From: Verrucomicrobiota bacterium
GTDB lineage: Bacteria; Verrucomicrobiota; Verrucomicrobiia; JADLBR01
NCBI GenBank assembly: GCA_029560585.1
Contig: JAKQKQ010000072.1
Coordinates: forward strand, 1-34,510
Direction: 5' to 3'
DNA: 34,510 nt
The position numbers and the translations under genes were made by a program. Of the stretch, positions 16,379 through 19,573 are shown one piece after another; the stretch's first letter is position 1, and each line of letters opens with the position of its first letter. The notes beneath the pieces were generated by a model. The model made no database searches, was not told the DNA's origin, and was given only the letters and a program-made list of their open reading frames with translations.

Positions 16379-17580
16379 CGGGCGAGAATCCCCCCCGGTC
16401 CCGCGACGCCCTGAGGGCACATTGCGCCAACGCCCTTGCCGCACTCGAGGGGCAGAATCTCCTCCGGCGCATGCGGGAGGTCGATTCCGCCCAGGGGACC
16501 GAGATCGTTGTCGGCGGTCGATGCCTGCTCAATTTCTCCTCCAACGACTATCTCGGTCTCGCGAACCATCCCGCGATCGCCGATGCGGCCCACGAGGCCG
16601 TCGCGCGCTTCGGCACGGGTTCTGGCGCATCGCGTCTCGTCTGTGGAAATCTCGCGCCCCATGCCGCGCTCGAAAACGCCATCGCACGCCTGAAGGGCAC
16701 CGGGGCGGCCCTGGCCTTTTCCAGTGGTTATGCGGCGGCCCTTGGAACCATACCCGCACTCGTCGGTCGCGGCGATGCCATCATACTGGATAAGCTCTGC
16801 CACGCCTGCCTCGTCGATGCGGCGCGCCTTTCTGGGGCCCGCGTGCGCGTATTTCGCCACAACGACATGGCACAGCTCGAGGAACATCTCCGCTGGGCGG
16901 CGTCCAGCGACATGCGCGCCCTCGTGTTGGTTGAATCGGTATACTCCATGGATGGCGACGCCGCGCCCCTTCGCGCCATCGTCGAGGCCAAGGACCGCCA
17001 TGGCGCATGGCTGCTCGTCGACGAGGCTCATGCCACCGGAATCTTCGGCCCCGGCGGCGCAGGCCTGTGCCGGGAACTCGGCGTCTCCGAGCGCGTGGAG
17101 ATCCAGATGGGCACGCTCAGCAAAGCGTTCGGCTCAAGCGGCGGATTCATCGCCGGTGATCGCGAGTTGATCGATCTGCTGATCAACCGCGCGCGAAGTT
17201 TCATCTTCTCCACCGGCCCGGCGCCCGCCGCGGTCGCCGCCGCGCGCGCCGCCGTCGAACTCTCATCGGGCCCCGAGGGCGATGTGCGCCGCACCGCCCT
17301 CTGGGCCAATATCAACGACCTTGCCACCGAACTTCAGGATCTCTGGCCGGACCCGCCCAAGGGCGAAAGCCCCATTCTTCCCCTCATCGTCGGCGCCGAG
17401 AATAGCGCCCTCGCCATCGCCGGGGCGCTCCGTGAACGCGGCCTCTGGATTCCCGCCATCCGATATCCCACCGTCGCCCGGGCCAAGGCCCGCCTTCGTG
17501 TCTCTCTCTCCGCCGCCCACACCCGCGCACAGGTCGCCGCCCTCGTCGAGGCATTGCGGGCAGTGCGCGGGATCAAGTGA
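16369..17580 (+). CDS. bioF: 8-amino-7-oxononanoate synthase (BioF)
   Basis: The 403-residue protein belongs to the alpha-oxoamine synthase family of PLP enzymes. It condenses pimeloyl-ACP or -CoA with alanine in biotin synthesis. Visible motifs are NFSSNDYLGLANHP (55-68), the Gly-rich FGTGSGASRLVCGN (81-94), DEAHATGIFGPGG (218-230) and the PLP-lysine motif GTLSKAFG with Lys252. It then has the C-terminal ILPLIVG and IRYPTVARAKARLRVSLSAAHT, which favour BioF over glycine C-acetyltransferase (Kbl) or serine palmitoyltransferase. Two starts are possible, 16369 and 16375; the latter makes an ATGA overlap with the SDR gene. No other bio gene is in the window, so assignment rests on motifs alone. 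Confidence 0.85.
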   Translation: MGMTGENPPRSRDALRAHCANALAALEGQNLLRRMREVDSAQGTEIVVGGRCLLNFSSNDYLGLANHPAIADAAHEAVARFGTGSGASRLVCGNLAPHAALENAIARLKGTGAALAFSSGYAAALGTIPALVGRGDAIILDKLCHACLVDAARLSGARVRVFRHNDMAQLEEHLRWAASSDMRALVLVESVYSMDGDAAPLRAIVEAKDRHGAWLLVDEAHATGIFGPGGAGLCRELGVSERVEIQMGTLSKAFGSSGGFIAGDRELIDLLINRARSFIFSTGPAPAAVAAARAAVELSSGPEGDVRRTALWANINDLATELQDLWPDPPKGESPILPLIVGAENSALAIAGALRERGLWIPAIRYPTVARAKARLRVSLSAAHTRAQVAALVEALRAVRGIK

Positions 17581-17735
17581 GGCAGGCGATCCCGCCCGCC
17601 GTCACTCCCAAACGATGAACGTTCGAGGTTGTGCTCTCAAGGCATGGCGATCGGGGGCACATTCTTTGCCTAAACAAGAGCCTGTGCGGTGTCTCAGATG
17701 AATCTGAACACCCATCTGATCCGCCTGGAAAAGGC

Positions 17736-17958
17736 GGAGGGACGCCGACCCCGGCGTCAGCGTCTCACCGGATGCGCGGCTCCTGGGCCGACCCGGCCCG
17801 CGAGGCGAGGCTGTCTCAAGACTCAAACGCCCAACACGGAACACCCAACAATCAATGCCCATCTGATGATAGAGGGGACTTCCAATGGTGTGCGGCGCGC
17901 GACAATGCACGGCATCTCACAGAGATGCCCTACAAAATTTGTAGGCCGGCGTCCCTCC
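17736..17958. repeat. Inverted repeat pair GGAGGGACGCCG / CGGCGTCCCTCC
   Basis: GGAGGGACGCCG at 17736-17747 is the exact reverse complement of CGGCGTCCCTCC at 17947-17958, 199 bases apart. The left arm also starts a local hairpin (GACGCCGACCCCGGCGTC). The arms look like two oppositely oriented copies of a short dispersed repeat rather than ends of one gene-bearing element. Confidence 0.55.
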
Positions 17959-18052
17959 CACGCCCAAAGCGACGGTATGTCGGGCGGGTTTTTCAACGGG
18001 TTGTCAGCGCAATGAACGATGCCCGTGGTGTGAAGTCGATGGGTCAGCCCGG

Positions 18053-18154
18053 AATGGCGCTAAGTTAAGGGACATTTGGGATCGTGGCATGGGCATCCTG
18101 CCCACGGCCAGGATGGCCGTGCCACTGTCGCGACAGACTTAACTTAGCGCCATT
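18053..18154. mobile_element. 102-bp MITE-like element with 17-bp perfect terminal inverted repeats
   Basis: AATGGCGCTAAGTTAAG at 18053-18069 is the exact reverse complement of 18138-18154. The 7-base word TCAGCCC occurs just outside both ends (18044-18050 and 18159-18165), a possible remnant of target duplication. The interior is a perfect cruciform palindrome (18084-18125). No transposase is encoded, so it would be a non-autonomous element if mobile. Its right end touches the feoA stop codon. Confidence 0.6.
18084..18125. repeat. Perfect double-hairpin (cruciform) palindrome
   Basis: GTGGCA and TGCCAC (18084-18089, 18120-18125) close two adjacent perfect hairpins: TGGGCA-TCC-TGCCCA (18090-18104) and CGGCCA-GGA-TGGCCG (18105-18119). 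Every base outside the two three-base loops is paired. The arrangement resembles a REP/BIME unit sitting inside the MITE-like element. Confidence 0.75.
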
Positions 18155-18158
18155 CGGA

Positions 18159-18392
18159 TCAGCCCCCGACCCGCCCCACCTTGACCGCCACCGCATCGGC
18201 ACGCCTCAGGCTCAACCGATGGCCCTGCAGTTCCACTGTGATCGGATCCCCGAACGGCGCCACCGCGACGACCTTCACCTCGAGTCCGGGAAGAAAGCCC
18301 ATGGCCAGCAACCGCTGGGAGGTGCTGCAAACCGCATCGATCGAGAGCAACCGCCCCCGGCCGCCAAGCGGCAGATCACTGAGCGCTTTCAT
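18159..18392 (-). CDS. feoA: FeoA family ferrous iron transport accessory protein
   Basis: The 77-residue protein has the length and SH3-like fold pattern of FeoA. The features are MKALSDLPLGGRGRLLSI, then RLLAMGFLPGLEVKVVAVAP (30-49), GDPITVELQGHRLSLRRADA (51-70) and a final VAVKV strand. FeoA is a small cytoplasmic partner of the Fe(II) transporter FeoB. No feoB lies next to it here, which is unusual but known for stand-alone FeoA-domain proteins. The ATG at 18392 has no clear Shine-Dalgarno. Upstream are a TTGACA promoter element and an FNR-type site, consistent with low-oxygen control. The stop codon abuts the MITE-like element. Confidence 0.88.
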   Translation of the reverse strand: MKALSDLPLGGRGRLLSIDAVCSTSQRLLAMGFLPGLEVKVVAVAPFGDPITVELQGHRLSLRRADAVAVKVGRVGG

Positions 18393-18426
18393 GGGCCCTG
18401 AAATATCGCAACTTCCACTCGTAGAA

Positions 18427-18454
18427 CGTCTAGAACCAGCACCCGGAGTGTCAA
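18427..18454 (-). promoter_or_regulatory. Candidate sigma-70-type promoter of feoA
   Basis: On the minus strand a perfect -35 TTGACA (18449-18454) is followed after 16 bases by a weak -10 TAGACG (18427-18432). Transcription would start near 18420, about 28 bases before the feoA ATG. The -10 is poor, as expected for an activator-dependent promoter. Confidence 0.4.
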
Positions 18455-18472
18455 GGACGGGGGCGCCATCCC

Positions 18473-18486
18473 TTGACCCGGATCAA
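18473..18486. promoter_or_regulatory. FNR/Dnr-type operator between feoA and hemH
   Basis: TTGACCCGGATCAA fits the FNR/Anr/Dnr family consensus TTGAT/C-N4-ATCAA, with both half sites present. Its centre is about 60 bases upstream of the predicted feoA transcription start, close to the class I activator position (-61.5). It is 22 bases before the hemH ATG, where it would more likely repress or overlap the hemH promoter. No FNR gene is in the window. Confidence 0.6.
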
Positions 18487-18508
18487 GAACCGGCGATACC
18501 GTTGTGCC

Positions 18509-19573
18509 ATGGGCCAAGATCAAACGACACCGCGAAGGGCCGTGCTGCTCGTCAACTTGGGTTCGCCCGATTCCCCATCCGTCCCGGATGTCCGGCGATA
18601 CCTCACCGAATTCCTCTTGGATCCGCGGGTCATCGACATCCCGTGGCCCCTGCGCCAGCTGCTCGTCCGAGGCGCGATCATCCCGAGGCGGGTGCGAAAC
18701 TCCGCCGAGGCCTATCACTCGATCTGGACCCCCGACGGGTCGCCGCTGACGGTCAGCAGCAAGAAACTGCGCGACCTTCTCCAGGCGCGCGTTGAGGTCC
18801 CGGTCGCCCTGGCGATGCGCTATGGCAATCCCTCGATCCGCGATGTCATCGGCCAACTGGCCACCATGGGCGTCGATGATCTGTTCCTGATCCCCCTCTA
18901 CCCGCACTACGCCATGTCGAGTTATGAGACGGTGGTCGTCCGCGTGCGCGAAGTGCTCGCGCGCACCGTCCCGCGCTGCCGCCTGTCCGTGCAACAGCCG
19001 TTTTACGTCGACCCCGATTATGTCTCGGCCCTCGTTGCGTCCGCCCGACCGTGGCTGCAGCAGCCGCACGATTACGTCCTCTTTTCGTACCACGGCATAC
19101 CCGAGCGACACTGCCGGAAAGCCGACGCCTCCCGATCACACTGCCTCGCCCGGCCCGATTGCTGCGATGTGCCGCACCCCGCCCACAGTGTCTGCTATCG
19201 CCACCAGGTGTTCGCCACCACCCGCGCCTTCGCCGCAGCGGCCGGCCTTGCCGAAGGAACATATTCCGTCTCGTTCCAATCGCGCCTCGGAAAAGACCCC
19301 TGGCTCGGGCCCTACACGGATTTCGAACTGGATCGCCTCGCTCGCTCCGGCATCAAGCGCCTGCTGGTCGTCTCTCCAGCCTTCGTCTCCGACTGCCTCG
19401 AGACCATCGAGGAACTCGGCTTCGCTGGCAAAAAGACGTTCCTCCGGGGTGGCGGCGAATCCTTCGAACTCATCCCCTGCCTCAACGAACACCCGGCCTG
19501 GCTCGATTTTCTGGAGCACCGAGTCCGCGAATACCTGTCATCAGGACATGAGACTAACACCCCATCCTGTTAG
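18509..19573 (+). CDS. hemH: Ferrochelatase with an internal Cys-rich segment
   Basis: The 354-residue protein inserts Fe(II) into a porphyrin at the end of haem synthesis. Motifs are AVLLVNLGSPDSP (11-23), YGNPSI, FLIPLYPHYAMSSYE, SYHGIPERH with metal-site His195, SFQSRLGKDPWLGPYT and SPAFVSDCLETIEE with Glu298. The start at 18509 matches the family N-terminus; the frame open to 18473 overlaps the FNR-type site. Right after SYHGIPERH is an insert with Cys202, Cys212, Cys218/Cys219 and Cys229. Some bacterial ferrochelatases are known to carry a [2Fe-2S] cluster on such an internal four-Cys segment. The gene diverges from feoA and is convergent with the hydrogenase operon. Confidence 0.95.
   Translation: MGQDQTTPRRAVLLVNLGSPDSPSVPDVRRYLTEFLLDPRVIDIPWPLRQLLVRGAIIPRRVRNSAEAYHSIWTPDGSPLTVSSKKLRDLLQARVEVPVALAMRYGNPSIRDVIGQLATMGVDDLFLIPLYPHYAMSSYETVVVRVREVLARTVPRCRLSVQQPFYVDPDYVSALVASARPWLQQPHDYVLFSYHGIPERHCRKADASRSHCLARPDCCDVPHPAHSVCYRHQVFATTRAFAAAAGLAEGTYSVSFQSRLGKDPWLGPYTDFELDRLARSGIKRLLVVSPAFVSDCLETIEELGFAGKKTFLRGGGESFELIPCLNEHPAWLDFLEHRVREYLSSGHETNTPSC

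Follow-up and report, generated by a model that had tools for sequence, protein, structure and literature searches.

A MITE family with IS4-type ends and a palindromic core, most likely mobilised by IS4, in a Verrucomicrobiota genome

The repeated element located next to the end of feoA in a Verrucomicrobiota genome is very probably a non-autonomous MITE copy that depends for its movement, in trans, on an IS4-subgroup DDE transposase (IS4 family). Judged from sequence, it represents a new MITE family of a known kind, for which mobilisation by IS4 is the most likely assignment. Its members are short, lack a transposase gene, are bounded by terminal inverted repeats (TIRs), are dispersed and are flanked by duplications of constant length, and autonomous elements with matching ends exist in other genomes. 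The transposase would recognise the 18-bp TIRs and cut out the element, which would be inserted at palindromic targets of the GGGtCAGaCCC type by an 11-bp staggered cut, generating 11-bp duplications.

The window is the whole stretch of DNA analysed (34,510 nucleotides). The parental genome, G000, is a draft of 7.06 Mb in 336 contigs, 95.7% complete. L-numbers denote loci, C-numbers contigs of G000, and the other G-numbers other genomes.

Structure of the element at feoA

The element spans positions 18052-18155 of the window, for a length of 104 bp. The exact 17-bp inverted repeats described in the first-pass annotation (18053-18069 and 18138-18154) were recovered, but their length had been understated, as both arms can be extended to 18 bp (18052-18155). 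The TIR pattern, allowing up to 3 mismatches, is found twice in the window vs 0.02 matches expected by chance, and the stretch holding the element folds with z values of -6.9 as DNA and, as RNA, of -8.2 on the + strand and -5.2 on the - strand. The motif TCAGCCC, previously noticed at both ends, is indeed present at 18044-18050 and 18159-18165, as part of an imperfect 11-bp duplication (GGGTCAGCCCG vs GGATCAGCCCC) identical at 8 or more of 11 positions. The reported location at the feoA stop codon also holds: the gene, on the - strand, ends at 18159, 3 bases from the element, with its stop falling within the right duplication copy. The features identified are the following.

17736-17948, + strand: remnant of another repeat composite, lying roughly 100 bp from the MITE (similarity to L046 and G001)
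18041-18051: left target site duplication, 11 bp, GGGTCAGCCCG (of all lengths from 5 to 16, 11 bp alone gives high identity across copies)
18052-18069, + strand: left 18-bp TIR, GAATGGCGCTAAGTTAAG, which also bounds the autonomous IS of L116 and L146 on either side
18070-18083, + strand: left subterminal stretch; element positions 23-31 hold the block ATTTGGGAT (comparison with IS)
18084-18125: palindromic core, 42 bp, 12 bp below the family consensus length (folding and alignment)
18126-18137, + strand: right subterminal stretch (alignment of copies)
18138-18155, - strand: right 18-bp TIR (exact inverted repeat)
18156-18166: right copy of the target duplication, GGATCAGCCCC, holding the feoA stop codon (flank comparison)
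18159-18392, - strand: feoA, FeoA domain (Pfam PF04023, 66.7 bits), 77 aa, stop codon at 18159-18161

The nearby relic has two parts: positions 17807-17948 are 95% identical over 142 bp to the interior of a 365-bp element in L046, bounded by imperfect forms of the same TIRs, while the sequence before them, ending at 17806, has 19 counterparts in G001 with 71-85% identity and resembles the core of the elements of that genome.

Copies in the parental genome

A scan of the parental genome with the 17-bp TIR, allowing up to 2 mismatches, gave 13 forward and 22 reverse matches, vs 0 and 2 for the reversed control pattern; the repeats are therefore found well beyond this site, and the reservation that they might occur only here can be set aside. 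The whole-element query returned 53 rows, many of which were on the opposite strand or limited to the core. From these regions 19 copies, located on 14 contigs, were aligned to a consensus of 116 bp, to which they are 94-99% identical over the aligned bases. Each aligned copy includes the core and at least one end: both ends are recognisable in 16, and the right end is missing in three (L045, L046 and L049). The alignment leaves out a diverged element on C178, the 365-bp element (L046 3308-3672), in which imperfect forms of the MITE TIRs surround another interior, and what remains as fragments or chimeras on three further contigs (C63, C201 and C272). The description of the element as MITE-like is borne out by these copies together with the TIRs, the 11-bp duplication and the transposases with matching ends in other genomes, described below.

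Some copies deserve separate mention. The C178 element (L072 468-572) has 3 mismatches in each TIR and other stem sequences; its core keeps, on one strand, the plan GTGGCA-hairpin-hairpin-GCCAC, with stems of other sequence that remain self-complementary, which suggests an exchange of palindromes within a conserved design. In L045 and, as a variant, L049, and also in L242 of the same-genus genome, a hairpin of the TAGCCTGCATATTTCACG...CGTGAAATATGCAGGCT type interrupts the right TIR near CTTAAC; it apparently represents the terminus of some other repeat or mobile element choosing that site. The left TIR of L038 contains the end of a PPIase-domain reading frame (1-1089), whose last codons and stop are thus supplied by the element.

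Target site duplication

Flanking sequences were compared, at lengths from 5 to 16 bp, for 15 elements of the parental genome and 41 element rows from other genomes. The former omit the copies in L041, L045, L046, L048 and L049, by effect of a 4-mismatch filter on end pairs, and include the 365-bp element; the latter include four rows of IS length (L116, two overlapping rows for L146, and L147), a pair of overlapping L148 rows, and the G001 contig L104. Flank identity peaks at 11 bp in both sets, with values of 0.855 and 0.780 respectively, vs 0.17-0.40 at all other lengths. Perfect 11-bp duplications are present in 5/15 own elements and 17/41 rows from other genomes; at least 8 of 11 positions match in 14/15 and 30/41, leaving one and 11 below this value. 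The single exception in the parental genome, L034, has a perfect 12-bp duplication instead.

The consensus target derived from the flank rows, GGGtCAGaCCC, is of palindromic type; in the parental genome A (6.5/14) is commoner than G (3/14) at its first base. In L089 (3649-3933) and L152 (837-1078) two elements lie exactly 11 bp apart, with one target copy in common, an arrangement which gives independent support for the size of the duplication. In these tandems the duplication itself seems to have been reused as a target.

Autonomous elements with identical ends

An exact scan of genome_contigs with the 17-mer detected at least 104 stretches, and 80 loci (L073-L152) were examined among the matches listed. 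A paired TIR, with up to 4 mismatches, is present in 35 of these 80 loci: 32 pairs bound short elements and three elements of IS length. Single matches were not counted as evidence, as some 30 exact occurrences of a 17-mer would arise by chance in the 257 billion bases searched, by our own arithmetic and under uniform base composition.

L116 (1552 bp) and L146 (1558 bp) are complete IS whose TIRs are identical to those of the MITE and which are flanked by perfect 11-bp duplications, GGGACAGACCA and GGGGCAGAGCC. Each contains one protein of 488-489 aa, matching the NCBIfam model transpos_IS4_1 at 210 bits (cut-off 115) and Pfam DDE_Tnp_1 at 87 and 97 bits, with the residues D156-D232-E349 (D-75-D-116-E) and YFQRWDVELFFRDIK as YREK; both match the Pfam model Nterm_IS4 only below its cut-off. 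According to the portions of the IS4 family survey consulted here (De Palmenaer, Siguier and Mahillon 2008, PMC2266710, with Table 1), the IS4 subgroup has ends of the form -AATR--------WTW----, a length of 1400-1650 bp, 10-13 bp repeats and, in a single ORF, a DDE transposase with Y(2)R(3)E(6)K and D(60-110)D(100-150)E. At each position that this end consensus specifies (PMC2266710 Table 1), GAATGGCGCTAAGTTAAG agrees with it, and L116 and L146 agree with the subgroup in ends, length, duplication length and DDE/YREK residues. The window element shares the end consensus and the duplication length, and differs in being 104 bp long and in containing no transposase gene.

A search of the class detected the transposase in 23/384 genomes at E <= 1e-60. 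Among the 28 loci from this search, 10 are IS with paired ends and at least 8/11 flank matches, eight of them perfect, a count in which three loci come from one genome and the choice of end pairs favoured matching flanks. Several IS from the class search measure 1851-1862 bp and are thus longer than the published range. The transposases of ISAcma16 and other plasmid-borne IS4, whose names are annotation labels, are 33-39% identical in the 15 records listed among 354 with a match. The IS4 transposase genes of L116, L146 and L203 have their stop codon within the right TIR.

In the parental genome, two transposase queries gave no match at E <= 10 in the 336-contig, 95.7% complete draft; the same queries were positive in 7/93 and 23/384 genomes. 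Since no such transposase was found in the draft assembly, the element looks orphaned in its own genome: a multi-copy IS may be missing from the draft, or the copies may be fossils. The six own-genome loci with DDE_Tnp_1 genes were considered as partners and rejected, none having a TIR within 4 mismatches. The transposase with matching ends that the first-pass annotation proposed to look for is thus found in L116 and L146 and, truncated at its 5' end, in the same-genus genome G001 (L203), and was not found in the own draft assembly.

Sequence similarity between MITE and IS beyond the TIRs was evaluated over 16 IS. The block ATTTGGGAT (element positions 23-31) is identical, at the same offset, in the left end of the L264 IS, with close variants in L263 and L265. 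Overall the similarity is weak: the left end is only weakly above shuffled sequences (p = 0.07 for left-left and 0.01 for left-right comparisons) and the right end shows none (0.99 and 0.90 in the two right-end comparisons). Subterminal kinship was accordingly dropped as a general feature.

Related elements in other genomes

In the same-genus genome G001, the truncated transposase remnant of L203 ends at an exact TIR, and elements of 221 bp carry the same TIRs as the window MITE around another core, GTGGGAGGG...CCCTCCCAC. The surroundings of two G001 elements, L243 and L246, are wholly included in L104 and L119, records of Verrucomicrobiia bacterium SJ186 (JADLBR01), to whose genus the window very probably belongs as well. 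The stretch of the window related to this core is found at 19 places in G001, six of them at a TIR; 10 of the other 13 were fetched, nine without a TIR-like site and one with a single site at 4 mismatches. The dominant core thus differs between the two genomes, though not absolutely, because the own 365-bp element also contains a stretch resembling the G001 core. Elements with still other cores, and TIRs one base different, were found in G003 (192 bp) and G058 (205 bp).

The feoA gene of G001 has no MITE. A clean empty site was sought there and none was seen, because gene order differs: the matches to feoA and to the bioF-like and ferrochelatase-like genes of the window (names assigned by eye) fall on three different contigs. 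Spread by phages or plasmids was discarded, as searches of both with the 116-bp MITE gave no match and the 18-bp TIR has no exact match in viral_contigs.

Location of the copies relative to genes

A selected role at feoA, as a bidirectional transcription terminator or a stabiliser of mRNA 3' ends, with transposon origin being secondary, is an improbable alternative, yet the one that fares best. The arrangement at feoA is suggestive, with the element 3 bases from the stop and a neighbouring gene (bioF by eye, no family search) ending at 17580 and pointing towards it from the other side; the RNA fold of the element is very stable on both strands (-65 and -78 kcal/mol for 131 nt). The combination typical of terminators, a GC-rich hairpin followed by a T-run, is however not found: no terminator-like site with a T-run is present in 17500-18600, Rfam gives no match up to E = 1 in 17500-18500, and the feoA gene of the sister genome has no such element.

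The genomic location of the other copies was evaluated on the 45 ORFs listed around the 19 copies by length and third-position GC (none at L043), 30 of which were scanned with Pfam; the starts of ORFs opening inside an element are predicted only. A Pfam-supported neighbour was found for 12 copies; the remaining seven, with none among the ORFs scanned, were not counted. Seven of the 12 face or meet gene ends (feoA in the window, L036, L038, L039, L040, L044, L046), L044 being itself 3 bases from the stop of a methyltransferase gene, and five face gene starts (L032, L033, L035, L041, L049). As copies face both ends and starts of genes, their placement fits insertion into gene borders which tolerate it. 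The suggestion that the element may end transcription did not stand, and a dedicated terminator role is not supported, both for the lack of a T-run and for the copies at gene starts, and it was set aside as the principal explanation; there may be a mild effect on 3' ends.

In terms of the MITE reading, the window copy landed on the last feoA codons and stop. Because the 11 bp holding the stop were duplicated, the insertion left the gene intact, and may have been neutral.

Structure and origin of the core

The double hairpin with every stem base paired, described earlier, was confirmed by folding positions 18084-18125: the 42-bp core can be drawn, on both strands, as a three-way junction in which all stem bases form Watson-Crick pairs and only two 3-nt loops are left. 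For the + strand, predictions favour one long hairpin over this cruciform (-32.1 vs -24.7 kcal/mol as RNA, -18.8 vs -17.4 as DNA). On the - strand, another fold is slightly preferred as RNA (-25.5 vs -24.7 kcal/mol) and the cruciform is the best fold with DNA parameters (-17.4 kcal/mol).

In the alignment of the 19 copies, 12 bp between two CCCA repeats are absent only from the window copy and L044; the remaining 17 have a longer core, which folds as two separate hairpins. Since the shortened core is limited to two copies of 19, the perfect cruciform is, on this alignment, a deletion product and not the design of the family: the window copy has lost the 12 bp between the CCCA repeats. The earlier label of a REP-like cruciform is therefore fair for the core, whereas the perfect cruciform is a property of these two copies.

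The core was also searched separately from the TIRs, as had been advised. With an exact 18-nt core probe, 18 sites are detected in the parental genome, 17 of them in aligned copies with TIRs and one (C201) beside a decayed right end. A variant differing by one base, CTTGCCC, is found at 22 further places; in the 18 of these fetched with about 210 bases on each side, no TIR was detected within 5 mismatches. The core is thus kin, by sequence, to a hairpin repeat which also occurs without TIRs, and the interior of the MITE was probably acquired from these free-standing repeats of its own genome, or is common to them. L050 is a chimera of MITE core and free hairpin repeat, and short core matches without TIR were found in 5/92 other genomes searched. 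The fetched CTTGCCC repeats (L053-L070, 18 of the 22) are often multi-hairpin composites around GGCATGGGCATCTTGCCCATGGCC, several of them flanked by GTAGCGAAG on the left and CTTCGCTAC on the right.

These free repeats raise the alternative that a REP-associated tyrosine (Y1) transposase spread the whole element as a repeat of REP/BIME type, the TIR being only the outer part of a long hairpin. Besides the 22 related repeats, six matches to Y1_Tnp (PF01797), all over the cut-off, are present in the parental genome on C147, C163, C243, C246 (two) and C268, and are candidate REP-associated tyrosine transposases. Y1 transposases are not expected to leave target duplications, and the 11-bp duplications of the family therefore contradict such a spread for the whole element; in addition, the TIR is shared with DDE IS4 elements and is missing from the 18 fetched repeats. 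This alternative is accordingly very unlikely, while a Y1 route for the origin of the core alone is possible. A chance inverted repeat or an assembly artefact, conceivable in a 336-contig draft, can practically be dismissed given the 19 aligned copies on 14 contigs, the 0 and 2 control matches vs 13 and 22, and the paired TIRs with 11-bp duplications of other genomes.

The interiors of other TIR-bounded elements were compared with same-length stretches located 150 bp outside, probably largely coding, for 35 short elements from the 80 listed loci, with those of at least 350 bp and an overlapping row of L148 excluded. By local folding, z is below -2 in 13/35 interiors vs 7/65 flanks (Mann-Whitney p 1e-4); with unrestricted pairing, which also counts long inverted repeats, the figures are 19/35 vs 6/65 (p 4e-8). 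Hairpin cores bounded by TIRs are present, for example, in L088, L097, L110, L118, L126 and L142. The p values overstate the difference, because the set includes elements sharing one genome or nearly duplicating each other (L103/L121, L118/L134, L140/L150, L089/L152, and pairs in L084 and L097). No fold excess is seen in 22/35 interiors by the local and 16/35 by the unrestricted measure, such as L084, L111, L127 and L141, nor in the G058 element L250. Some TIR-bounded cores presumably resemble palindromes widely dispersed in other genomes.

Discussion

The GGGNNNNNCCC-like target at first suggested the IS231 subgroup. MIC231 mobile insertion cassettes are reportedly non-autonomous DNA between IS4-family ends, a description which also applies to the window element. 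The subgroup was dropped, since IS231 ends begin with CAT (PMC2266710), whereas the ends described here begin with GAATGG; IS231 elements can also carry passenger genes (PMC2266710), and the window element carries no gene.

The nested layout, singled out as unusual in the first-pass annotation, is real; it is, however, recurrent, because the same ends enclose different, often hairpin-rich cores in short elements of other genomes, and a REP within a MITE has been published for Coxiella (PMC5896051). According to that paper, QMITE2 of Coxiella burnetii is a 150-190 bp MITE with 7-11 nt duplications which contains a REP, has TIR-less short forms and is located mainly in 3' untranslated and intergenic regions. 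The family described here is similar in being a MITE with duplications that encloses a REP-like sequence, and in having a core also found without TIRs; it differs in that the REP of QMITE2 is of GTAG type, and IS4 does not appear as a whole word in the text of PMC5896051. REPs are palindromes of 20-40 bp with many extragenic copies; GTAG or CGTC tags beside the palindrome are described for them (PMC3733652). ISRm22 is an IS4-family element inserting into REPs with a preference for palindromic targets (PMC1525189); there the REP is the target and is split, whereas here the palindrome is cargo and the target an 11-bp GGGtCAGaCCC-like sequence.

In the main text of PMC2266710 neither 'MITE' nor 'non-autonomous' occurs, and 'IS4' is absent from the main text of a 2024 review of prokaryotic MITEs (PMC10969869). 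A full-text literature search with the 13-bp TIR core gave no paper, and among the papers listed on IS4-type MITEs, MIC231 and Verrucomicrobia MITEs none has a title or abstract beginning that describes this family; as most subscription papers lay outside these searches, this does not prove absence.

GAATGGCGCTAAGTTAAG ends are found around unrelated hairpin-rich cores in Verrucomicrobiota, Gammaproteobacteria and others, among the listed loci, and even inside a single genus identical ends go with different dominant cores. It is conceivable, though doubtful, that IS4-subgroup ends act as a general carrier, capturing extragenic palindromes and spreading them across phyla. One set of transposon ends repeatedly carrying unrelated palindromes would be the unusual part of the system. 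If true, it would provide a route for the dispersal of REP-like sequences independent of REP-associated tyrosine transposases.

An anonymous repeat of an uncultured genome can now be tied to a defined transposase family, and annotators gain an end sequence, a target and a duplication length that can be searched for. Should the wider reading hold, it would offer a testable account of the way in which some extragenic palindromes spread from site to site and from one lineage to another.
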